Origin: Balneolales bacterium
GTDB lineage: Bacteria; Bacteroidota; Rhodothermia; Balneolales; Cyclonatronaceae
Length of the DNA stretch: 48,056 nucleotides
NCBI GenBank assembly: GCA_020832405.1
Contig: JAFIET010000019.1
Span: 1-48,056, forward strand
Reading direction: 5' to 3'
The position numbers and the translations under genes were made by a program. Shown in pieces: positions 1,437 to 32,494 of this stretch (its first letter is position 1; every line of letters starts with the position of its first letter). Under the pieces are notes generated by a model. That model was given only the letters and a program-made list of their open reading frames with translations, was not told the DNA's origin and ran no database searches.

Positions 1437-4400
1437 GTGACAAAATTAAATTTTAACAGCTGCTTATCGCTCCTCTGCCTCGACAAGGGCGGCACTTTTA
1501 CCGACTGCCTGATGCGCAGCCCCGATAGCAGCCTCCACAGCCTGAAGCTGCTGAGTTCAGGAGAACTCCGGCTGCCCTGCAGGGGAGCTGCCGGCTCACG
1601 CAGACTTTATTTTACTTTACCAACGGATGTGCTGCCGGGCGCACTCCCAGGCTTCCGGGTAAGAACAACAACTGCCGCAGGTGAGTTTAATTGCACGGTA
1701 AAGCGGATTTTCAGTAATAAAGCAGCTGCCGGTTCTGACATGCTGCCGGCGAAAACAGAAGCAGAAGCCGAACTCGAACTCGATGAAGCGCTTCCGGCGG
1801 AGGCTTCGTCGGTTTCTTTTTTTACAGGTGAAGACGCCCCGGTCGTTGCTGCCCGCCTGCTCACGGGCACCCCTGCCGGGCAGCCGCTGCCGCCGCTCAG
1901 CTGGCGCTTAGCCGGCACGCAAACAACCAACGCCCTGCTCGAAGGCCGGCACGCTCCGACCGCACTGGTTCTGAGTGAAGGCTTTGCTGACCTGCTGCGC
2001 ATCGGCAATCAGCAGCGGCCTGATATTTTTGCACTGGAAGTGAAGCAGCCCGAACCGCTGTACAAGCATGTCAGCACGGTGCCGGGACTCATCAGCGCTG
2101 CGGGAGTCGAAATTGAGCCGCTCCGCACCGGCACGCTTGAAAAGCTGATTCCGGAATGGAAGGCTGCCGGCGTTGTGGCCGTGGCCGTTAGCCTGCGCAA
2201 TGCGTGGAAAAATCCGGCGCACGAGCAGCAAATCGGCAGGCTGCTGCGGGAAGCAGGCTTCGATCATGTGGTGCTCTCAAGCGAAACGGCGCCGCTGATA
2301 CACTACCTCGACCGCAGCCGCACGACCCTCATCAACGCGCTGCTTTCGCCCGTGCTCGCGCAGTGGCGGCGCGATCTCGAGCTGGCCGCGCCCGGCGGCA
2401 GCAAATTCGCCATGAGCAGCGCCGGCGGACTGCTGCCCTTCACAACATTCCGCCCGGTTGACAGCCTGCTGAGCGGCCCTGCGGCCGGTGTAACCGGTGC
2501 GGCGGCTGCAGGCAAAGAAGCCGGCTTCAGCCGCCTGCTCACCTTCGATATGGGCGGCACGAGCACCGATGTTGCCCGTATCGACGGCCGGCCGGGCCTG
2601 CGCTTCAGCCATCGCGTGGGCGAAGCCGAGGTGATGGCACCCGCCGCCGATATCGAAACGGTGGCCGCAGGCGGCGGCTCGCTCTGCCGCTTCGACGGCT
2701 ACCGGCTGCTTGTGGGCCCTGAAAGCGCCGGCGCCGATCCGGGCCCTGCGGCCTACGGACGCGGCGGCCCGCTCACCCTTACCGACGTAAACCTGCTTGC
2801 CGGGCGAATCCCGGTGGCGGGCTTCAGCATCCCGCTTGACTTACAGGCCGCTGAAGCGCAGCTCGAAGCCCTGCGTGCTGAAATCGCAGCCCGCACCGGC
2901 GTAAGGCCCGCGCGCGAGCAGCTGATCCGCGACCTGCTCGACATCGCCAACGAGCGCATGGCCGGGGCCATCCGGGCGGTTTCGGTACAGCGCGGCTACC
3001 GGGCATCGGAACACACGCTGGTCTCGTTCGGCGGCGCGGGCGGACAGCATGCGTGCGAACTGGCAGGGCTGCTGGGCATCAGCCGGGTGCTGTTTCCGGG
3101 CTACGCCTCGGTACTCAGTGCCTACGGACTGCTGCATGCCGAACGTGAAGAAATCGCCGAACAGCAGATTCTGATGCCGTTTGAGCGCTGGGTTCAGGCT
3201 TCGGAGCGCATCACCCGAAACCTAAAAACAGAACTGCTCGCACGGTTTTCGGGGGATGAGGCCTCCCGGGCGGAAATCAGTATGGTGCTGCAGCTCCGGA
3301 TTGAGGGTCAGGAGGAGAGCCTGCCGGTTGCCGTGCCGCTTGAGGCGTATGAGGCAGACCGGGCACGGGAGCTATTCGCGCAGGCCTGGCAGTCGCGCTA
3401 CGGCATGGCATTGCGGAAGGGCGCCCCGGTTGAGCTCGCTTCGGTGCGGCTGATTGCCCGGCTGCCCGAAACGCCGCGGGTGCGGGCTTCAGCGGAGGCC
3501 GGTACAAGGCGCACGGAGGGTGATGCGCGCACGGCAGCAGTCATCACCCTGCAAAAAACCGAGACCGTTCCGCTGCGCGACCGGGCAGAACTGGCGGGCA
3601 GCAGGGAGCCGGTTGAGGGTCCCGCGCTCATCACCGGCGGGGCAACGACAGTGTATCTGGCACCGGGCTGGTCGGCGGCGCTCACGGAAACCGGCGCACT
3701 GCTTGCAACACAGCAGCCGGATTCGAAGCCGACTCACGATTCGGAGCGTGAGGGCGGGCGGCTGGCTTCGGCCCGGCTGGAGCTGGCCGGCAACCGGCTG
3801 CAGGGCATCGCCAACGAAATGGGTGAGGTGCTGCAGCGGAGCTCGGTTTCGGTGAACATCCGGGAGCGGCTGGATTTTTCGTGCGCCGTTTTTGATGCGG
3901 AGGGCTATCTCGTGGCAAATGCGGCGCACATCCCCGTGCATCTGGGTGCGCTCGGGCTGTGCGTGCGCGGGCTGATGGCGAAACTTGAAATGAAGCCTGA
4001 CTCGGTGTACATCACAAATCACCCGGCTTTCGGGGGTTCGCATCTGCCGGATGTGACCGTTGTGAGTCCGTTTTTTGCGGACGGGAAGCTTCAGGCGCTG
4101 GTCGCGAACCGGGCGCATCACGCGGAAATCGGCGGCACCCGGCCCGGCTCGATGTCGCCCGATGCGGCGCACCTGGGCGAGGAAGGCTGCGTAATTCCGC
4201 CGCTCTGCATCGTGGATGAAGGCATGCCGCAGTTTGCAGCGCTCAGGGCCTGCCTCACCGAAGTACCCTGGCCAACCCGCGCGCTGCGGGAAAATCTGGG
4301 CGATATCGAATCGGCGATTGCTGCCAACCGCAGGGGTCTGCACCGGCTTCAGGAATGGACCCGGCAATACGGCACCGACGACCTGCACGATAGCATGCGG

Positions 4401-5294
4401 ATGATTCTCGATTACGGCGAAACGCGCACCCTGGAGATGCTGGCGCAAAGCGGGCTTCGGGAGGTCAGCGCGAAAGAACTGTTAGACGACGGCACACCGC
4501 TGCGTGTGGCGGCATCGGTTCGCGAAGGGCTGCTGCATCTGGATTTCAGCGGCAGCGGTGCGGTACACCCCGGCAACCTGAACGCAACCCCGGCCATCGT
4601 GAACAGCGTGGTAATGTACGTGCTCCGGCTGCTGCTCAACGAGCCGGTACCGCTGAATGAGGGCCTGATGCGGGCCGTGCGGCTGCGACTGCCTGAGGGC
4701 ACGCTGCTGAACCCGGTTTTCGGCGCAGAACCGGAAGCCTGCCCCGCCGTTTTTGGCGGAAACACGGAGGTGAGTCAGCGCCTCACCGACACCCTGCTGA
4801 AGGCCTTCGGGCGCATCGCCTGCTCGCAGGGCACCATGAACAACCTGCTGTTCGGCAACGAAAATTTTGGCTTCTACGAAACCCTGGGAGGCGGCACCGG
4901 CGCCGGGCCGGGCTTTAACGGGGCGCACGCGGTGCATCACCACATGACCAACACGCGGGTTACCGACCCGGAAATTCTGGAAAGCCGGTACCCGGTGCTG
5001 GTGAGGCAGCTGGAAATCAGACGGGGCTCAGGCGGGGCCGGCAAATGGCGGGGCGGCGACGGCATGCGGCGCGAGCTGGAATTTCTGGCTCCGGTTTCCC
5101 TCACCCTGCTCAGCGAACACCGGCAGCAGCAGCCCTACGGCCTGAACGGAGGCCTGCCGGGTGAAGCCGGGCGGCAGGGCGTTATCCGGACGGACGGCCT
5201 TACACAAGCACTGGAGGGGCAGGCCAAGGTACAGCTCGAAGCCGGCGACCGCTTTTGGATTGAAACGCCGGGCGGCGGCGGCTGTGACGAATGA
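1437..5294 (+). CDS. Fused hydantoinase A/B (5-oxoprolinase-like) protein
   Basis: A 1285-residue single-chain HyuA-HyuB enzyme, about the length of eukaryotic-type ATP-dependent 5-oxoprolinase. The HyuA half (about residues 1-740) has the ASKHA-fold phosphate motif DKGGTFTD at 16-23 and a second one, FDMGGTSTDV, near 370. The HyuB half starts near 780 (RLQGIANEMGEVLQRSS) and carries the Gly-rich GGGTGAGPGFNG segment. It ends with the family-typical ETPGGGG tail. Family members hydrolyse 5-oxoproline or hydantoins using ATP, and substrate cannot be read from sequence. The start is GTG at 1437; the two nearby ATGs upstream are out of frame. The gene stands alone, divergent from the BamA-like gene. 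No glutathione-cycle gene is adjacent, although a glutamate-cysteine-ligase-like gene lies about 40 kb away. Cytoplasmic. Confidence 0.92.
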   Translation: MTKLNFNSCLSLLCLDKGGTFTDCLMRSPDSSLHSLKLLSSGELRLPCRGAAGSRRLYFTLPTDVLPGALPGFRVRTTTAAGEFNCTVKRIFSNKAAAGSDMLPAKTEAEAELELDEALPAEASSVSFFTGEDAPVVAARLLTGTPAGQPLPPLSWRLAGTQTTNALLEGRHAPTALVLSEGFADLLRIGNQQRPDIFALEVKQPEPLYKHVSTVPGLISAAGVEIEPLRTGTLEKLIPEWKAAGVVAVAVSLRNAWKNPAHEQQIGRLLREAGFDHVVLSSETAPLIHYLDRSRTTLINALLSPVLAQWRRDLELAAPGGSKFAMSSAGGLLPFTTFRPVDSLLSGPAAGVTGAAAAGKEAGFSRLLTFDMGGTSTDVARIDGRPGLRFSHRVGEAEVMAPAADIETVAAGGGSLCRFDGYRLLVGPESAGADPGPAAYGRGGPLTLTDVNLLAGRIPVAGFSIPLDLQAAEAQLEALRAEIAARTGVRPAREQLIRDLLDIANERMAGAIRAVSVQRGYRASEHTLVSFGGAGGQHACELAGLLGISRVLFPGYASVLSAYGLLHAEREEIAEQQILMPFERWVQASERITRNLKTELLARFSGDEASRAEISMVLQLRIEGQEESLPVAVPLEAYEADRARELFAQAWQSRYGMALRKGAPVELASVRLIARLPETPRVRASAEAGTRRTEGDARTAAVITLQKTETVPLRDRAELAGSREPVEGPALITGGATTVYLAPGWSAALTETGALLATQQPDSKPTHDSEREGGRLASARLELAGNRLQGIANEMGEVLQRSSVSVNIRERLDFSCAVFDAEGYLVANAAHIPVHLGALGLCVRGLMAKLEMKPDSVYITNHPAFGGSHLPDVTVVSPFFADGKLQALVANRAHHAEIGGTRPGSMSPDAAHLGEEGCVIPPLCIVDEGMPQFAALRACLTEVPWPTRALRENLGDIESAIAANRRGLHRLQEWTRQYGTDDLHDSMRMILDYGETRTLEMLAQSGLREVSAKELLDDGTPLRVAASVREGLLHLDFSGSGAVHPGNLNATPAIVNSVVMYVLRLLLNEPVPLNEGLMRAVRLRLPEGTLLNPVFGAEPEACPAVFGGNTEVSQRLTDTLLKAFGRIACSQGTMNNLLFGNENFGFYETLGGGTGAGPGFNGAHAVHHHMTNTRVTDPEILESRYPVLVRQLEIRRGSGGAGKWRGGDGMRRELEFLAPVSLTLLSEHRQQQPYGLNGGLPGEAGRQGVIRTDGLTQALEGQAKVQLEAGDRFWIETPGGGGCDE

Positions 5295-5394: not shown

Positions 5395-7554
5395 ATGAAA
5401 CCATTATCGAACTTGCTGTTCGCTTTCTTTTGGCTTGCAGTTCTGATTTCAGGCATTGGCTGCGACAAACAGGCCTATTACCCTGCCCCCGACGGGGAGC
5501 TTGAGCGCCGTAGTGAAGAAATCAGATCTTTTTTTATGTCAGTTGAGCCTGCTGAGGGTGAGGATGGGTTACGCCGCTTTGAAGCTTTTATGGACGAGTA
5601 CCGGGAGCTGCATGGAAATGATGAACGCACAGAAGCTTACCTGCTCTATTATTTTGGCTACCTGAACGGCCTGTTACAGCAGTACCCGCAAACGCTGGGA
5701 CTATATCTTGCTTCCTATGAACTTGCGAAAGCGCATCAGCTCCGTGCTTTAATATTAGAGCTAACGCAAAAACTAATCTATGTTAACCATGTGTTGTCAG
5801 CCGTACTCAACGTAGGTGAAATGGTTGACTACGCAGTTGAACTGGCCAACAGCCCGCCGGCTGATCCTTTTTTGCATCATTTGGCTTTGCATACAAAAGG
5901 GAGTATGTATTATTACAAGCAGAATTACACAGCCGCGATTGAAGTTTTACTGCCCGCAGCCGCCTTTTTCCGTGAGCGAGAAATCCGACAAAAGCAGCTT
6001 GAAGTAAATAATCTCCTTGCACTGTCTTTTCAGAGAGTAGACAGATATAGCGATGCATTGGAGTACCTGGGCAGAAATCAGGAACTACATCAGATTAGCG
6101 GTAACCCGATTGCAATTTCACAAACACGGGGCAACATCGCCATTGTACATGCCAGAACAGGGAATTTTAGGGCAGCTATAGATTCGACCAAGGTATCTCT
6201 TGCGTTTAATGATTCGCTGGGCCGAAGGGTTGTAGCCATTCAAAATATCTACAATATTGCCACTTTTTACCGCGATTCCGGAAATCCGGATGAGGCAATT
6301 GCTTACTTCCGGGAAGGGCTTGACCGTAGCCTGACCATCGGCCTTAAGCAGGGCGTAATGTTTAACGGCCTCGGGCTTGCCCGCCTTCTTTTAAATTCCG
6401 GCTCAGAAGATTTGGCTCAGATTCGTGACCTTTTAGACATGGCGTACCGCAACGCGGACAATTTCGAGCAAAGTGATTTATATGAAGATTATGCTTCCGC
6501 CATGTTCCGTCTTGAGCTGAAGTCCGGAAACGCGGATGAAGCCTTCAGCTGGCACGAGGTTTACCTGGTTGTACTGGAAACCAAATATAACCTTGAGAGG
6601 CAGGCAGCCATCGACGAAATACTGGTAGAAAACCGGCTGCTAAGCTCGCAGGCGGAAATTCAGCACCTCAACGAGACCATTTCGCTGAAAGAAGAAGCCC
6701 AGCGAAACCTGTATGCGGGTCTTTTTATTCTTATGACCATGCTGACCGGAGCAGCCGGGGCTACGTGGCACTTTAGCCGCCTCAGCCGGAAAATCAACCG
6801 TGGGCACGCCATCCTTAAATCACAGAATCAGGAAATTGTTGATCAAAATGCACGACTGGTGCAGCTCAGTGAGGAACGGCAGCGCCTGATCAAAATCATC
6901 ATTCATGATTTGCGCAACCCGATCAGTTCTCTGAACGGCTCCCTTGAATTGCTCCGGGATGACCGCCTGAGCTTTCTTGAATCTTTTTTGGAAATAGCAA
7001 CGCTTTCGGTCAGCCGTATGGGAACCATTGTGAACGGCCTTCTGGAGCTTTTTAAGACGGAATCGATGGATGTTTGCAACGAGCTCGAAAAGACGGCTGT
7101 TGATGACTTCCTCAAAGGAATCCTAAAAGAATTTGAAACACTTGCTACGCAAAAGCAGCAGTCAATTGTGGCTGAGCTTCCGCACTTAGAAGCTGTTACC
7201 CATCAGAAAAGCCTGCAAACGATTGCCGGCAACCTTGTTTCAAATGCGATTAAGTACGCACCTGCCGGAACCCAAATAAAGGTAAGCGTACAAACCGTGG
7301 AGAAAGGCTGGCAGCTGAAAGTCCGCGATCAGGGGCCCGGCTTCCGTGAAGCAGACAGGAAAAAAATGTTCACCCTTTTCGGGCAGCTCTCCTGCAAACC
7401 TACCGGCAATGAGGAAAGTACCGGCATCGGTCTTTATGCAGTAAAAACAACCATTGAAAAGCTTGGCGGCAGCATTACCCTCAATTGGGATTATGAAGAA
7501 GGAGCCGAGTTTATTTGCTGGTTTCCTTATCTTAGACCGGGCTACTTTCAGTAA
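5395..7554 (+). CDS. TPR-containing sensor histidine kinase, copy 1 of 3
   Basis: A 719-residue protein. The N-terminus is a hydrophobic signal ending in a cysteine at position 23 (ISGIGC), so a lipoprotein signal is likely although the -3 residue is not ideal. Residues about 40-420 are helical TPR-like repeats. A membrane span lies at about 439-461 (LYAGLFILMTMLTGAAGATW), followed by a coiled-coil linker. HisKA carries the phospho-acceptor H504 in IIIHDLRNPISSL. HATPase_c has the N-box NLVSNAIKY (N617), G1 box VRDQGPGF and G2 box STGIGLYAVKTT. There is no receiver domain and no adjacent response regulator. The inferred topology is a TPR sensor outside the inner membrane with the kinase inside. 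It is the first of three paralogues in the same orientation, and the start of copy 2 lies exactly 2300 bp downstream. Confidence 0.9.
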   Translation: MKPLSNLLFAFFWLAVLISGIGCDKQAYYPAPDGELERRSEEIRSFFMSVEPAEGEDGLRRFEAFMDEYRELHGNDERTEAYLLYYFGYLNGLLQQYPQTLGLYLASYELAKAHQLRALILELTQKLIYVNHVLSAVLNVGEMVDYAVELANSPPADPFLHHLALHTKGSMYYYKQNYTAAIEVLLPAAAFFREREIRQKQLEVNNLLALSFQRVDRYSDALEYLGRNQELHQISGNPIAISQTRGNIAIVHARTGNFRAAIDSTKVSLAFNDSLGRRVVAIQNIYNIATFYRDSGNPDEAIAYFREGLDRSLTIGLKQGVMFNGLGLARLLLNSGSEDLAQIRDLLDMAYRNADNFEQSDLYEDYASAMFRLELKSGNADEAFSWHEVYLVVLETKYNLERQAAIDEILVENRLLSSQAEIQHLNETISLKEEAQRNLYAGLFILMTMLTGAAGATWHFSRLSRKINRGHAILKSQNQEIVDQNARLVQLSEERQRLIKIIIHDLRNPISSLNGSLELLRDDRLSFLESFLEIATLSVSRMGTIVNGLLELFKTESMDVCNELEKTAVDDFLKGILKEFETLATQKQQSIVAELPHLEAVTHQKSLQTIAGNLVSNAIKYAPAGTQIKVSVQTVEKGWQLKVRDQGPGFREADRKKMFTLFGQLSCKPTGNEESTGIGLYAVKTTIEKLGGSITLNWDYEEGAEFICWFPYLRPGYFQ

Positions 7555-7694
7555 GCTTATTTAACTTGTGCACATTCGGGGGCAGGTATGCGGCACAGTT
7601 GCCTCTGAGTCAGATCGTTGCTGATTCATACTTATTGTGCCTTACACACAGGTTAAACTAACTAACAATTGGACTGCTTTAAAGCTATTTTACA

Positions 7695-9875
7695 ATGAAA
7701 CACGCTTCGGGTTTACTGCTCAGCTTCCTGTTCACTCAGTTTTTGCTAACGGCCACAGGCTGTTACACACAGCCCCCGTACCCGGAACCCGGCCAACAGT
7801 TTGATGCTCATGATGCAGCAATCGACTCCGTATTTCAATCTGTTTCCCCTGGAGAAGGCCCTGATGGATTGCGTCGTTTTGAAATCTTCATGGAAGATTA
7901 TCTGGAGCTTCATGATAATGATGAACGTGTTCAGGCCTACCTTCTTTATTATTCCGGTTATCTGAACGGTCTTTTTCAGCAGTACCCGCAGGCGCTTGAA
8001 AATTTTCTCGCCGCCCATGAGCTTGCAAATCAGCATATGCTGCGAAGCTTAGCCGTCCGGATTACAGCAAAATTACCCTACGCCAATAATATTCTGTCGG
8101 CCGGGCTCGACATGGATTCACTGGTCGCGCAGGCTATTGAAATGGCCGATATTCCTCCTGCTGCCCCCTACACGCAGCACCTGGCTCTGTACGCGAAAGG
8201 GGCCGCCTTGTATTACGAACAGGCATATACAGCAAGTATCGAAGTTTTACTACCCCTCGCTGCTTATTTCGGTGAACACGGCCATATAATAGAGGAAATC
8301 GACACCAACAACTACCTTGCACTGGCTTCGCAGAGAGCCGGCAGATTTGAGGATGCATTTGTTTACCTGAGCCGCAATCATCAGATACACCAAGTTAGCG
8401 GTGACCCGATTGCGATTTCACGAACCCGTAGTAACATCGCAATTCTGCATGGACTTTCAGGCAATTACAAAGCTGCCATCGATTCAACCAAGGTGTCGAT
8501 TGCATTCAACGATTCGCTCGGACGCAGCTTCGCAGCAGTTCAGAATATTTTCAATATTGGCATCTACTACCGAAACATCAATCAATTTGAGGCGTCAGCT
8601 GCATATTTTCGGGATGGTCTTGCCCGAAGTGAAGCCCTTGATTTTACGCAGGGCATACTTTTTAACAGCCTTGGTCTTGCAGCTACTCTTATAGCGGCAG
8701 ACTCAGATGATCTGAATGAAATCCGTGCACTTCTCTATATGTTTAAACAACATATAGAGAAGCCCGAAGAAACGGAACTCTACCGCGATTTTACCAGCTC
8801 CATGTTTAACCTTGAGCTTAGATCAGGCAATACAGCAGAAGCCCTTCGCTGGCATGCAATTTTTCTGGAAACACTGGAGAACTTCTTTGACCTTGAAAGA
8901 CAGGCAGCAATCAATGAAATTTTAACAGAAAACCGTTTACTGCAATCACAGGCTCAAATTCTGCACCTGAACCAAACGATTCTCCTGAAAGAACAGGCTC
9001 AGCGAAACCTGTATGCAGGGTTGATTTTTCTTTTCCTCCTGCTCGCCGGGGCTGGCGGAGCAAACTGGCACTTTAGCCGCCTCAGCCGAAGAATCGCACA
9101 GGCACACGCGGTACTTCAATCACAAAACCAGGAAATTGCTACTCAGAACGAGCTTCTTTTAAAACTTAGTGAAGAACGTCAGCGCCTGATCAAAATCATC
9201 ATTCACGACCTGCGTAATCCTATCACCTCGCTCAACGGGTCGCTTGAGTTAATGAAGGAAGATGTCTCTCAATTTCAGGAACCCGTCATAGAAATAGCAA
9301 TGCACTCGGTGAGCCGCATGAGAACCATTGTGAACGGACTGCTTGAACTTTTTAAATCTGAATCAGCAGATATTTCTAATGAACTGCAACAATTTTCACC
9401 TGCTGATTTACTGAACAGGGTAATTAAGGATTTTGGAGCAGAGGCTAACCATAAACAGCAGGAAATTGTGGCTGAGCTGCAGGATTTTGAAACAGTTTCC
9501 CATAAAGAAAGCCTGCAAACGATTGCCGGCAACCTTGTTTCAAATGCGATTAAGTATGCCCCGCCCGAAACCCGAATACTTGTTAGCCTGAAATGCGCCG
9601 GAAACGGCTGGCAGCTGAAAGTCCGCGATCAGGGGCCCGGGTTCAGTGAAACAGATAAGGAAAAAATGTTCACCCTTTTCGGGCGGCTCTCCGGCAAACC
9701 CACCGGGAATGAAGAAAGCACCGGCATAGGGCTTTATGCGGTAAAAACAACCATCGAAAAACTCGGCGGCAGCATTTCCCTGAACCGGGATTACACAGAA
9801 GGGGCTGAGTTTGTGTGCCGGTTTCCTTATCTTAAATCAAACAATGATAGTAAGGCTAAACCCGTAACCACCTGA
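7695..9875 (+). CDS. TPR-containing sensor histidine kinase, copy 2 of 3
   Basis: A 726-residue paralogue of the preceding kinase with the same layout: signal with a lipobox-like TATGC (C23), TPR-like helices to about 420, a membrane span from about 439, HisKA with H504 in IIIHDLRNPITSL, and HATPase_c with NLVSNAIKY, VRDQGPGF and STGIGLYAVKTT. All these landmarks have the same residue numbers as in copy 1, so no net indel separates the two over most of their length. Several nucleotide stretches are identical, including 49 bp (9508-9556 versus 7208-7256) and 35 bp (9606-9640 versus 7306-7340). This points to recent duplication or gene conversion in the kinase half. The TPR half is more diverged, which suggests different input signals. 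The 140-bp gap to copy 1 contains no terminator I can recognise, so co-transcription is possible. Confidence 0.9.
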   Translation: MKHASGLLLSFLFTQFLLTATGCYTQPPYPEPGQQFDAHDAAIDSVFQSVSPGEGPDGLRRFEIFMEDYLELHDNDERVQAYLLYYSGYLNGLFQQYPQALENFLAAHELANQHMLRSLAVRITAKLPYANNILSAGLDMDSLVAQAIEMADIPPAAPYTQHLALYAKGAALYYEQAYTASIEVLLPLAAYFGEHGHIIEEIDTNNYLALASQRAGRFEDAFVYLSRNHQIHQVSGDPIAISRTRSNIAILHGLSGNYKAAIDSTKVSIAFNDSLGRSFAAVQNIFNIGIYYRNINQFEASAAYFRDGLARSEALDFTQGILFNSLGLAATLIAADSDDLNEIRALLYMFKQHIEKPEETELYRDFTSSMFNLELRSGNTAEALRWHAIFLETLENFFDLERQAAINEILTENRLLQSQAQILHLNQTILLKEQAQRNLYAGLIFLFLLLAGAGGANWHFSRLSRRIAQAHAVLQSQNQEIATQNELLLKLSEERQRLIKIIIHDLRNPITSLNGSLELMKEDVSQFQEPVIEIAMHSVSRMRTIVNGLLELFKSESADISNELQQFSPADLLNRVIKDFGAEANHKQQEIVAELQDFETVSHKESLQTIAGNLVSNAIKYAPPETRILVSLKCAGNGWQLKVRDQGPGFSETDKEKMFTLFGRLSGKPTGNEESTGIGLYAVKTTIEKLGGSISLNRDYTEGAEFVCRFPYLKSNNDSKAKPVTT

Positions 9876-9924
9876 TATTTGTGCCGGATGCAGGTTGGGT
9901 TTGACCTTTATTTACGAATGAAGT

Positions 9925-9950
9925 CCCTCTATACAAAGGCCTGTAGAGGG
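9925..9950. other. Short inverted repeat between kinase copies 2 and 3
   Basis: CCCTCTA and TAGAGGG pair as a 7-bp stem with a 12-nt loop, 50 bp after the stop of kinase copy 2. No T-tract follows, so this is a weak candidate for an RNA 3' end or processing site rather than a standard terminator. Confidence 0.3.
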
Positions 9951-10160
9951 TTGATTACCTGATCGGATTATCCTTTGAGCTTACTTATAATTTCATAGCA
10001 TTGAATGCTTCATAAACACAATTCCAAGCCTGCCTTGAAATAATCCGCACTCCCAAAAGATGCCTGTCTTCAATTTTGAAAAAATATGGCGTAAATAATC
10101 GGCTGTAGATGTATCAACACTGCGTAAACGTATCCAAATCCATTAACGAGGTAGCTTACG

Positions 10161-12395
10161 ATGTCCCCTGTTTTCAAGACCCCTATCGTGCACTTTATAT
10201 TTTTAACCCTCATTTTGCTGATTATACAAGCATGCGGGCACAAAACAGATCCGTTGAAAAGCAGTGAAGAGTGGAGACCTGCTGTTGCCAAAATGGACTC
10301 GCTGTATAACAGCTTTCGTGCTAACCCAAATACTGCTGATAAACAACTGGCGCTGAACATGCTGGCAGAACTTCGGGAGGAACATCCGGAAAGTGATGTC
10401 ATTAAGGCTTACAGCTGGCTTTATAAAGGTTTTATACACAAAACCACCAGGGAATGGCAAGCGGTAAATGAGAACATGAACAAGGCTTATGAGCTTGGAA
10501 TGGCCCTCAATATCCGTGAAATTCCGATTCGGGCAGCCCCTGCGCTGCTCAACTCAGCTTATAACCTCTCGCTCGAAAATTACCCGGCGCATATTGTCGA
10601 TGAAGTGAATGAACTGGCGAGCCAGGCCCCGGAAGACCCTTTTCTGATACATCTGGCGCTTTTAAGCCGCGGCTTTTATCATTTTCATCAGGAGGACTAT
10701 CCGGCAGCGCTTATTCCGTTTATTCAGGCGGCTGACTTTTTTGAGCAAAACGGCAACGAACAGCTTTTTCTGAGTACAAACAATTCCATCGCGCTGGCTA
10801 TGCATCGGGTAGGGCGCAGCGAAGAAGCCATCAACCGATACTCGCGCAATCTGAGCCGATATTATGCTAATAACAACCTCGTCGGGGTCAGCCAGACTTT
10901 AAACAATCTTTCCATTACGCTCAATCTGATGGGGGAGCGGCAGCGTGCCGTTGATTCTCTGAAAGTAGCCCTTCAGATAAATGAGGAACTCGGGCTCGAA
11001 TTCAATGCCATTCAGGCACAGTACAACCTTGGTTCTTATCTGCGGGAATTAGCTGAACTGGAGGAATCCGAAATGTACTTCAGAGAAAGCCTTGCCCGAA
11101 GTGAGGCCTTAAATCTCAGCATGGGTATTGTATTTAACAGCCTCGGGCTGGCGAAGAACCTTTTGATGAGGGAGCAGGAAAATTTAAACCTGACAGAAAT
11201 AAGAAGGTTACTCCAGCTTACCAAAGATACAGCCGTTAACCTGCCCGAACAGGATTTGTATATCGATTTTGCACTGGCCATGACTACCCTTGAATCAGCT
11301 GCGGGAAATTATCAGGAAGCTTTGCGCTGGCATAAAATCTATCAGCAGCAGTACAGCCGGATAAAAAGCACCGAGCGACAGCTTGCTATTGAAGAGCTTA
11401 TGTTTGCCAACCGCTTAGCACGCTCAGAGGATGAAATACGGCACTTGAGTGATGTGATCAGCCTCAAAGAGCAGGCAGAGCGGAATCTGTATGCGGGGCT
11501 TGCGGTGCTGATCCTGCTTCTGATCGGCACGGGTGCCGCAGGAATTCATTTTAGGCGCTTAAGCTACAAAATAAGCTCCATGTACAATGTGCTAAAAACG
11601 CAAAGCAATAAAATCACCGGGCAGAATAAGGAACTAAAACGCCTGAATGAAGAAAGGGCGCGCCTCACCAAAGTTATCATTCACGACCTGAGAAACCCTA
11701 TCGGATCGATTGATGCAACTCTTGAGATGCTTGAGGATTACCCTGATAAAGAACTGGATCAGTTTAAAATGTTCATGCATCTTTCTGTCAGAAAGATGCA
11801 GCTCATTGTTGACGGCCTGCTTCAGGTATATCAGACTGAATCGCTTGGTATTCAGGATAAGCTGAAAATGCAGCCTGTCTCCCAGCTGCTTCAGATGGAA
11901 GTTCAGGAGTTTGCAGTTACAGCACTTCATAAACAGCAGACCCTGGTGCATCAGATTGATGAAATCCAGGCCGTAACCCATAATCAGACCCTGCACATAA
12001 TTGTTTCTAACCTGCTGTCTAATGCAATCAAGTTTACACCGGCAGGTAAAACCATTACCCTGTTGGCTGAAAATAAACCGGGAGGATGGATGCTTATCGT
12101 TCGGGATGAAGGGCCTGGTTTCCGGGAATCAGACAAAGCCAAAATGTTCACCCTTTTCGGACGGCTTTCCGGCAAACCCACCGGCAGTGAGCAAAGTACC
12201 GGTATAGGGCTGTATGCCGTAAAAACGGCCGCCGACAAGCTCGGTGCCGTTCTTTCTGTGAATTGGGATTATAAAGAGGGAGTGGAGTTCAGCTGCTGGT
12301 TTCCTGAACTGCATATCAAACCTGAACCTAAGGCTTCTTTGGAAGCAGCAGAGATTGAAGCGGCAGAGATTTCAGAGGATGCCCGTTTGGGGTGA
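10161..12395 (+). CDS. TPR-containing sensor histidine kinase, copy 3 of 3
   Basis: A 744-residue, more diverged third paralogue. A hydrophobic signal ends in IIQAC (C25, lipoprotein-like). TPR-like helices span about 45-420. The membrane span starts near 443 (LYAGLAVLILLLIGTGAAG). HisKA has H508 in VIIHDLRNPIGSI. HATPase_c has NLLSNAIKFTP, VRDEGPGF and STGIGLYAVKTA. The C-terminus has an Ala/Glu-rich extension (EAAEIEAAEISEDA) absent from copies 1 and 2. The 285-bp spacer before it, larger than the 140 bp between copies 1 and 2, leaves room for its own promoter. Like its neighbours it has no receiver domain and no adjacent response regulator. Confidence 0.9.
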   Translation: MSPVFKTPIVHFIFLTLILLIIQACGHKTDPLKSSEEWRPAVAKMDSLYNSFRANPNTADKQLALNMLAELREEHPESDVIKAYSWLYKGFIHKTTREWQAVNENMNKAYELGMALNIREIPIRAAPALLNSAYNLSLENYPAHIVDEVNELASQAPEDPFLIHLALLSRGFYHFHQEDYPAALIPFIQAADFFEQNGNEQLFLSTNNSIALAMHRVGRSEEAINRYSRNLSRYYANNNLVGVSQTLNNLSITLNLMGERQRAVDSLKVALQINEELGLEFNAIQAQYNLGSYLRELAELEESEMYFRESLARSEALNLSMGIVFNSLGLAKNLLMREQENLNLTEIRRLLQLTKDTAVNLPEQDLYIDFALAMTTLESAAGNYQEALRWHKIYQQQYSRIKSTERQLAIEELMFANRLARSEDEIRHLSDVISLKEQAERNLYAGLAVLILLLIGTGAAGIHFRRLSYKISSMYNVLKTQSNKITGQNKELKRLNEERARLTKVIIHDLRNPIGSIDATLEMLEDYPDKELDQFKMFMHLSVRKMQLIVDGLLQVYQTESLGIQDKLKMQPVSQLLQMEVQEFAVTALHKQQTLVHQIDEIQAVTHNQTLHIIVSNLLSNAIKFTPAGKTITLLAENKPGGWMLIVRDEGPGFRESDKAKMFTLFGRLSGKPTGSEQSTGIGLYAVKTAADKLGAVLSVNWDYKEGVEFSCWFPELHIKPEPKASLEAAEIEAAEISEDARLG

Positions 12396-12422: not shown

Positions 12423-12953
12423 TTAAAGGCTACCGGCAATCCTTGCTGTCCACCTTACAGCTCTTTCAATAACTGCCCTGTCCGCAACTGTTTGGTTCAG
12501 TCTGCTTAGCAAAATATCCGTGCTGATGAGCTGGTCCAGAATCAGCCGCCGCACAAACTCGGTATCTTTTTCGCGAAAAGCTACCAGTTTGCTTGCTGCG
12601 AGATCATGTGCTTCAATACAATATCCAATTTTGTTTTCATCCATATAATCACGAACAATTATTGTTCTTTACTTCCAGTCTTTCGGAAGTACGGTTGTTT
12701 CAACCGGTACTCCGTGCACATAAAATCCGTGTGTTTTGTGAAACGGGGAGTTCTCTCCAAGCGCACAATCTATTTTATCAACAGCTTCCGGTTTATTAAC
12801 AGGGGAAACATCCACCTCAACAGATCTCCTCAGTTCAGGTGGTGCATCCGGGTACTGCCCTAAAATTGCCTGGGAGCCAAAAACAATAAGCTCCTCGTCC
12901 TCAGAAACCGTACAAGCAGCACGGATGGCATGTTCAAGCTGCTCTCTGTTCAT
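12423..12953 (-). pseudogene. DUF6036-type nucleotidyltransferase-fold gene interrupted by an in-frame TAA
   Basis: Read in a single frame, 177 codons give one continuous DUF6036/AbiEii-like protein apart from a TAA at codon 95 (12669-12671). The first half has the NTase-like VFGSQAILGQYPD (GSQ at 26-28) and SVEVDV acidic pair, and ends VETTVLPKDWK. Codons resume RTIIVRDYMDENK and continue through the family-typical GYCIEAHDLAASKLVAFREKD. The frame before and after the stop is the same and no bases are missing, so one substitution (for example GAA to TAA) would explain it. The start overlaps the stop of the upstream wHTH gene by four bases (ATGA), implying translational coupling. The second half has its own ATG at 12644 but no convincing ribosome site. 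It is either a recent nonsense pseudogene, two split proteins, or a base-call error. Confidence 0.75.
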
Positions 12954-13924
12954 ATATTTAACAGTTCCCCGATCATTATTTTGAACTTTTTCTGTTCATG
13001 CTCAGTAAGCACGGGCCAGAATGGCAGCGACTGCCTGAGTCGGGTGGCTCTTTCCGAATCTGATGTCAGAAACTTTTTTAGCCTTTGAGGGGAACAGTTC
13101 CTGAGCAGGTGTTTCCATTCCAGCAGCTCACTTTTATCTCCATTGGAAATCTCTCTGATCCGGCTCTCCAGGTATTTGATCGTTCTGGGAATTATTTCCG
13201 GGTTAGACTTTAGCAGCTCGCTCCAGACTTCAGACTCAGCCAGGGATCTTTCATCGAAATCCTGGTGGCCATGCACAGCCGCGAATCCGTTTGTTTGCGG
13301 GTTCAGATAATTATCCGGGTCCAAACCCCACAACCGGATAACGGCACCTTCTGTAAGAAAAGGTCTTGCTTCAAGGTCGGCAAGTGTTACACCTCTCACA
13401 TCTATCGTTACATCAAAAGAGTGCTCAACTTTTTCAACCATTATTTTTTCACGGAATTCCCGGGTTATATCATCAATCTCTTTCAGTTTTCCCAGCAGTG
13501 CCAGCTGTATTGGGTCACCATATTCATCATATCCAAGTGCAGCATCACCGAAAATCCAGGCTGATTCCGGCTTTTTCCCGAGCCCGCCAATTATCTGTTT
13601 CAGGGTTTCCAGAAAATTCTCATAGACCTTTAATTCTGAGGAAAAGAGTTGATTCAGCGAATCGTAGAGGGGGAAATCCTTTCTCAACCCGATCAGCTGC
13701 TGCCTGCCTGATCCGGAGTAAGCCGCGACTCCGGTTTCAGTCAGCCTTTTTGTAACATCATAAACTCCTTGCCTGGAAAGGTCTGTACGTTCCAGCAATT
13801 CGCTATGACTCACAGGATTTCCTGATCTGAATAGTTCACGAAGCACAACAAGGTGACCTCTTGAGCCAAGTATGGCTGAAAGCGGGTATTTTACAGCACT
13901 ATCCTGTTTTCGGTTATTTTTCAT
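12950..13924 (-). CDS. Winged-HTH protein with degenerate nucleotidyltransferase domain (toxin-antitoxin-like partner)
   Basis: A 324-residue protein. An N-terminal winged helix-turn-helix lies at about 15-75 (VLRELFRSGNPVSHSELLER, then LSRQGVYDVTKRLTETGV). The middle has an NTase-fold signature at 124-142, AWIFGDAALGYDEYGDPIQ, which aligns with the usual hGSxxxGxxxxxSDhDh pattern, with GD replacing GS. A later acidic strand FDVTIDV (about 170) could supply the third carboxylate. The C-terminal third is helical and unassigned. The stop overlaps the start of the DUF6036 gene by four bases, so the pair is a bicistron. By analogy with wHTH plus AbiEii/DUF6036 pairs, a regulator/antitoxin plus toxin role is plausible, but this is inference. 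The patch looks more AT-rich than flanking genes, consistent with an accessory insertion. Start ATG at 13924. Confidence 0.75.
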   Translation of the reverse strand: MKNNRKQDSAVKYPLSAILGSRGHLVVLRELFRSGNPVSHSELLERTDLSRQGVYDVTKRLTETGVAAYSGSGRQQLIGLRKDFPLYDSLNQLFSSELKVYENFLETLKQIIGGLGKKPESAWIFGDAALGYDEYGDPIQLALLGKLKEIDDITREFREKIMVEKVEHSFDVTIDVRGVTLADLEARPFLTEGAVIRLWGLDPDNYLNPQTNGFAAVHGHQDFDERSLAESEVWSELLKSNPEIIPRTIKYLESRIREISNGDKSELLEWKHLLRNCSPQRLKKFLTSDSERATRLRQSLPFWPVLTEHEQKKFKIMIGELLNI

Positions 13925-31846: not shown

Positions 31847-32494
31847 ATGTCCGTAATCACTTTACTTGTAGCAGACGATCATAGTGTAGTCCGTTTAGGG
31901 CTTACTTCCATTTTAAACAGCGTATCCACATTCAAAGTTGTTGCAGAAGCTTCGTCGGGGAGAGAGGCTGTAGAGTTGTACCAGCAGTTCAGGCCGGATG
32001 TTTGTTTTTTAGATATAACCATGCCGGAGTTAGACGGCATCGATGCGTGCAGAGAAATTCTGAAGTTCGACGAAGATGCCCGCATCATTATGATGACTAT
32101 CCACCTTGATGAAAAGTACCTGAATGAAGTGCTTGAAGCCGGTGCATACGGTTATATGCTCAAAAGCTCCGGCAAGGACGAGATCATCGAGAATATTCAC
32201 CGGGTACTGAACAACGAGCGTGTTTTCAGTAAAGCCGTTTCAGATATGATCACGACCAGTTTCCTGCAACGGAACCGCAAATCTGATGATCCTAAGCCCC
32301 TTTCCAGACTTACCCGCCGGGAAAAGGAAATCCTCAAATATATCGTTGACGGTAAAACCAATCAGGAAATAGCTGAAATACTTTCCATTTCTCCCCGAAC
32401 TGTTGAAACACACCGCTCTAACCTGATGCAGAAAATGGGTGTCAAAAATATAGCAGCGCTTGTCAAAAAGGCTCTTGCTGAAAATCTTATCTAA
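31847..32494 (+). CDS. NarL/FixJ-type response regulator
   Basis: A 215-residue regulator. The receiver domain (1-120) has the acidic pair D10/D11, phospho-acceptor D56 (CFLDITMPELDG), T84 and K106, so it looks competent for phosphorylation. A LuxR-type HTH follows at about 150-210 (LTRREKEILKYIVDGKTNQE, ISPRTVETHRSNLMQKMGV). DNA-binding transcription factor. No kinase gene is adjacent; the three sensor kinases at 5.4-12.4 kb are the only ones in the window, so they are conceivable partners, but this is inference. The leader of about 270 bp is AT-rich. A strong terminator lies about 130 bp downstream. Confidence 0.93.
   Translation: MSVITLLVADDHSVVRLGLTSILNSVSTFKVVAEASSGREAVELYQQFRPDVCFLDITMPELDGIDACREILKFDEDARIIMMTIHLDEKYLNEVLEAGAYGYMLKSSGKDEIIENIHRVLNNERVFSKAVSDMITTSFLQRNRKSDDPKPLSRLTRREKEILKYIVDGKTNQEIAEILSISPRTVETHRSNLMQKMGVKNIAALVKKALAENLI

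Follow-up and report, generated by a model that had tools for sequence, protein, structure and literature searches.

A clade of TPR sensor histidine kinases with a predicted lipoprotein signal, represented by three consecutive genes in a Balneolales genome

Three consecutive genes on one strand of a contig from a Balneolales bacterium (the whole stretch of DNA analysed here, 48,056 nucleotides, is called the window) encode histidine kinases in which a TPR sensor lies between a signal ending in cysteine and a central membrane span. How would such a sensor be attached to the membrane? Is the cysteine shared by the relatives of these kinases? How did three copies come to stand in a row? Which regulator receives their signal? 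We consider it likely that kinases 1-3 are orphan TPR sensor kinases with a sensor held at both ends, by a lipidated Cys and by the helix of the span. The features of the locus are as follows.

1437..5294, + strand: large upstream ORF, 1285 aa; a syntenic marker, also just 5′ of the single kinase L050 in the congener G005
5395..7554, + strand: kinase 1, 719 aa; lipoprotein-type signal to Cys23, TPR sensor, span ~438-458, HisKA 495-556, HATPase_c 604-712
5461..5463, + strand: Cys23 codon of kinase 1 (SGIGC), conserved alignment column
7555..7694, + strand: spacer between kinases 1 and 2, 140 bp, with just 8-10 base matches to other spacers
7695..9875, + strand: kinase 2, 726 aa; lipoprotein-type signal to Cys23 (TATGC), TPR sensor, span 438-456, HisKA 495-557, HATPase_c 605-712
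7761..7763, + strand: Cys23 codon of kinase 2, conserved alignment column
9876..10160, + strand: spacer between kinases 2 and 3, 285 bp
10161..12395, + strand: kinase 3, 744 aa; lipoprotein-type signal to Cys25 (IIQAC), TPR sensor, span 444-462, HisKA 499-560, HATPase_c 609-716
10233..10235, + strand: Cys25 codon of kinase 3, conserved alignment column

The three proteins have a common order: a lipoprotein-type signal with a terminal Cys, about nine TPRs, one membrane span, HisKA and HATPase. HisKA and HATPase_c exceed the Pfam cut-offs in all three, as in sensor histidine kinases, and TPR matches lie N-terminal to the span in all three, as in TPR sensor kinases, the best TPR match of kinase 2 scoring 30.0 bits against a Pfam cut-off of 30.1. 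In the alignment the H-box reads HDLRNP, the phospho-acceptor His is residue 504 in kinases 1 and 2, and the ATPase motifs also align. In-frame stops stand 15, 15 and 9 nt 5′ of the ATGs of kinases 1, 2 and 3, with no ATG, GTG or TTG in between, so that a longer N-terminus with a usual start is not possible for any of them. A preliminary description of this DNA had reported three same-strand kinases, signals ending at Cys23, Cys23 and Cys25 and a central span in each, and all of these were located; a hydropathy scan calls the span at 438-456 in kinase 2 and 444-462 in kinase 3, and that of kinase 1 is below the scan threshold but the segment aligned to the span of the other copies is nevertheless present. 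The architecture had also been called identical, which holds for the domain order but not for the sequence: the protein identity is 60% between kinases 1 and 2 and 39% between kinases 1 and 3, and the TPR parts of kinases 1 and 3 are just 32% identical. The offset of 2300 bp between copies 1 and 2 at the start, the span and the His is true, but since the two are gap-free relative to each other as far as the C-terminal tail and 2160 + 140 = 2300, it is one fact rather than three.

The meaning of the cysteine depends on its fate among the relatives. An alignment (A3) was made of 30 closely related full-length sequences, the window's three among them, obtained from a search of 40 related genomes and from fetched stretches; for 12 relatives a start codon further downstream was chosen by hand (13 were named, one of which was left unchanged). 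Within the part that precedes the TPRs, 29 of the 30 rows have Cys in the Cys column, L054 being gapped there, and the next best column of the signal region scores 14 of 30 when the start Met is left out. The residue before the Cys is A, G or S in 28 of these 29 rows; kinase 1 has Gly at −3, which is no classic lipobox residue. Both TGC (17) and TGT (12) are used as the Cys codon, which means that the Cys has been kept through silent changes. As far as sequence comparison can tell, the Cys at the end of the signal is present in this kinase clade beyond chance.

A family model derived from A3 was run over 296 genomes of the phylum and 128 genomes of the order. At E ≤ 1e-140, with eight candidates scored per genome, it gave 36 matches in 27 of the 128 order genomes, all within three families; because only these eight were scored, the copy numbers of the clade are lower bounds. 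Under the same threshold and the same eight candidates, two of the eleven genomes of the window's family (G002 and G009) gave no clade member. The N-terminus is readable in 34 of the 36 matches, the other two (L055 in G003 and L205 in G376) being cut at contig ends and excluded from N-terminus counts. An outside set of 67 TPR kinases (71 loci minus 4 duplicates) was used for comparison; it is a non-random set of the best-scoring among the matches listed, 40 of them hand-picked, with three candidates scored per phylum genome. The family-model score is at most 541 bits in these outside kinases and at least 741 bits in the 34 clade members. In a tree of the 101 sequences with TPR kinases of related genomes, as the preliminary description had proposed, built after removal of the 30 N-terminal residues from every open frame, all 34 clade members are monophyletic with a support of 1.0, which was rechecked on the unrooted tree.

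The signal itself was judged by a home-made lipobox rule, standing in for SignalP and DeepTMHMM predictions: a Cys after A, G or S, ten uncharged residues preceding it, a hydrophobic stretch before, polar residues after and a start codon in range. Counts by this rule are independent of the hand-shifted starts. Kinases 1-3 pass it and thus have, by this rule, the signal with lipobox of a bacterial lipoprotein, as do all five clade kinases of the window's genome (the window's three and those named C80 and C9). In total the rule is passed by 31 of the 34 clade members versus 2 of the 67 TPR kinases outside the clade, and by one of the 41 further kinase-like frames in the window's genome (37 stretches; three frames were cut at the stretch start). 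On the tree the lipobox label changes just 5 times, compared with a mean of 27.9 (minimum 22) over 500 shuffles. In the two outside passes (L139 and L169), more hydrophobic residues come next and, by eye, a type I-like site. Among the three clade misses, copy b of L058 does not pass despite its AVAC and has a short hydrophobic part; in L053 the Cys is preceded by Phe, and L054 is without Cys. As L053 and L054 are sisters (support 0.938), the tree points to a single loss of the lipobox, at the C9-type locus. Conservation of the Cys among orthologues, on which the preliminary description had staked its reading, stands in the alignment, and the lipobox is lost in this sister pair at another locus. 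As clade sisters without the lipobox, the two (L053:6842-9091 and L054:6443-8653) offer a natural control for what the anchor contributes. The only pass among the 41 other frames is a hybrid kinase of the Reg_prop/Y_Y_Y type with HisKA, HATPase_c and a receiver (L218:3-4112, minus strand, G000:C183), which carries VFLAAC and hints at further lipid-anchored kinases elsewhere.

The same tree bears on the origin of the three copies. Kinases 1 and 2 are sisters (support 0.999). Kinase 3 is joined to L050 (1.0), which in the congener G005 is the one member of the clade at the matching place, after the same large ORF; the two further clade kinases of G005 pair with those named C80 and C9 in the window's genome (1.0 in each case). 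This grouping indicates that an old duplication preceded the split of the window's species and G005, that the line of kinases 1 and 2 seems to have been lost in G005, and that kinases 1 and 2 separated later, or on the window's side. A recent duplication of kinases 1 and 2 was considered and ruled out, as they have 67.6% of bases in common, a dS of 1.23 and dissimilar spacers; dS is above 2 for the other window pairs and for kinase 3 and L050. Kinases of this type have also been copied locally, and separately, in two other genomes: three in a row in G036, forming one group (0.987; L058:7960-14937, minus strand), and two in G006 with three called ORFs in between (1.0; L059:4196-11975, minus strand).

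Elsewhere in the neighbourhood, the large ORF upstream of kinase 1 may encode a fused hydantoinase/oxoprolinase. The idea that each kinase gene has its own promoter and terminator was dropped, the excess in a window scan being too weak to use (13 promoter-like sites against 9.9 expected, 15 terminator-like sites against 9.3 expected). Rfam gave no match in the window. Downstream of the array, a 94-aa ORF (12672-12953, minus strand) with no Pfam match, a putative small nucleotidyltransferase, abuts a gene with weak HTH matches (12950-13924, minus strand), and the two are perhaps a toxin-antitoxin-like pair.

Can the cell attach a lipid to these kinases? Lgt and signal peptidase II, the lipoprotein machinery, are both encoded in the window's genome. 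By its Pfam model LolA has no match in this genome (G000), and the same model detects a Bacteroides control; lipoprotein transport may rely on a diverged carrier. In an AlphaFold2 model of kinase 2, made from the three window proteins, residues 41-390 mostly have a pLDDT of 75-95 by block and the TPR part contains 18 helices in nine pairs, the first of which begins 10 residues beyond the Cys. The span is part of a helix formed by residues 380-451. Past residue 400 or so, the stalk and the kinase half are modelled with low confidence: pLDDT values are mostly under 50 in the stalk and HisKA region and 37-72 by block in the ATPase part. In a Foldseek search, LGN/Pins TPR domains rank first and Rap peptide receptors are within the first 40 matches, which on the strength of the model hints at a peptide or protein as a possible ligand.

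An outline of how such a kinase might work is as follows. The N-terminus of the TPR sensor, which would be periplasmic, would be tied to the membrane by the lipidated Cys just before the first TPR helix, and its C-terminus would be held by the long helix running into the single span. The solenoid could be altered by a change in the envelope or by a ligand, for which a peptide or protein tail is the likeliest candidate, as in other TPR grooves; the long helix would relay this change across the span, and the HisKA dimer would then phosphorylate a regulator encoded elsewhere. It is conceivable, though highly improbable, that the lipid end sits in the outer membrane and the helix in the inner membrane, so that an elastic TPR solenoid and its long stalk would span the periplasm, with the kinase gauging the distance or tension between the membranes; if so, repeated local duplication would yield a set of gauges with different set-points. 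The length from the Cys to the span, 403-423 aa in 29 clade members, was considered as a ruler and rejected: by one common measure the median is 413 for 25 measurable outside kinases of the same order and 415.5 for the clade, so the lengths are similar and do not serve as evidence.

The attachment by lipid and helix proposed in the preliminary description is well supported by the comparison, by the lipobox rule (31/34 against 2/67) as well as by the Cys column (29/30). The lipidation of kinases 1-3 is nevertheless a prediction from sequence, and these proteins might instead be TPR kinases of the ordinary kind, with a type I signal or a first membrane helix that stays uncleaved; the Cys would then be a relic or serve some other purpose. 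This would agree with FimS, a studied TPR kinase whose TPR sensor, by the description in the accessible part of the source, lies between two membrane regions (PMC11053733), and with L053 and L054, which are without a good lipobox. However, it leaves unexplained why the Cys is the sole residue kept in an otherwise unconserved signal, almost always behind A, G or S, and why so few outside kinases pass the same rule; we regard it as quite unlikely. A somewhat better case, still on the unlikely side, can be made for a lipoprotein-type signal that serves only sorting or the placement of a partner and takes no part in signalling, given that one sister pair does without the lipobox. Against this, the Cys is kept, with synonymous codon changes, in relatives only 18-25% identical to kinase 2. 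Such conservation speaks for selection and does not tell which role was selected, and the double attachment of the sensor is, in our judgement, the likelier reading.

The output of the kinases raises a further choice. No response regulator adjoins kinases 1-3, as the preliminary description had noted: the sole receiver match on the contig (31865-32197) is about 19.5 kb downstream, and a complete two-component system with the regulator beside the kinase is therefore not found at this array. That match is carried by a NarL/LuxR-type response regulator (31847-32494, + strand). The further proposal that the array widens the input onto a shared output received no clear support from the comparison, and we would give the feeding of several inputs into one shared regulator a somewhat less than even chance. 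It would fit the lack of an adjacent regulator and the higher identity of the DHp domain compared with the TPR part, 74% versus 53% between kinases 1 and 2 and 93% versus 57% in the G006 pair, the pair that most favours a common partner. A similar contrast, however, exists between counterparts in different species (80% and 53% for kinase 3 and L050, 70% and 55% for L056 and L051), and it can therefore be read as the normal pace of the family and not as a sign of input diversification. In addition, a genome-wide search found 57 receiver matches in the window's genome, and the stretch that follows the phospho-His hardly differs between kinases 1 and 2 but is different in kinase 3. Partner choice is usually read in this stretch. 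It is thus possible from the sequences that kinases 1 and 2 on the one hand and kinase 3 on the other feed two outputs. No conserved partner gene was indicated, neighbour clusters being common to at most 8 of 32 sources and the ten proteins from them tried in Pfam being mostly enzymes. At the C9-type locus of two species, the clade kinase has a single-domain response regulator at a distance of about 3.5 kb (L052:2074-2475 and L057:2297-2692, both minus strand); a receiver match was obtained for that of L052 and in the window's genome, and this single-domain receiver is a candidate partner.

TPR sensor kinases are common in this phylum, as a family-model match at E ≤ 1e-40 was found in 214 of the 296 phylum genomes sampled. 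A clade with a lipid-tied sensor end, in which members with and without the anchor are separated by one loss, would offer a natural contrast for studying how a solenoid signals across the membrane, and such a lineage would connect lipoprotein maturation with two-component signalling.

How do these kinases compare with described systems? Lipoproteins with membrane helices exist, such as CyoA, which combines a lipid anchor and a helix in one chain; those are respiratory enzyme subunits and not kinases. A scan of the contigs of named relatives gave only four distant kinases. The literature searched, mainly non-subscription papers and in part only, yielded no description of a lipid-anchored histidine kinase, nor is one described in the accessible parts of PMC7240162, PMC8980031 and PMC11784079. 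The closest described protein found is FimS of the FimS-FimR system of Porphyromonas gingivalis, for which the accessible part of the source describes a periplasmic TPR sensor with eight predicted TPRs and a C-terminal kinase (PMC11053733). The TPR sensor with a C-terminal kinase is shared with kinases 1-3, whereas FimS differs in its two membrane regions and its cognate regulator FimR, and the word "lipoprotein" does not occur in the main text of that paper (PMC11053733). Kinase 3 matches the NCBIfam FimS model (NF053520) with an E-value of 4.6e-20 and 71.4 bits, far from the cut-off of 600, and so is no member of FimS; for kinases 1 and 2 it is not one of the 25 models listed. The Vibrio kinases VbrK/VxrA also have a TPR-like part in the periplasmic sensor, but according to the accessible part of a review of kinase sensing theirs is a mixed sensor, TPR-like plus PAS-like, and "lipoprotein" is likewise absent from the main text of the review (PMC8534201). 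The 67 other TPR sensor kinases of the phylum and order examined here have the same order of TPR sensor, span and kinase and differ in the lipobox, found by the rule in just two of them, and in their family-model scores, which stay below those of the clade. The predicted double anchoring by lipid and helix looks unusual for TPR kinases of this common Bacteroidota type.
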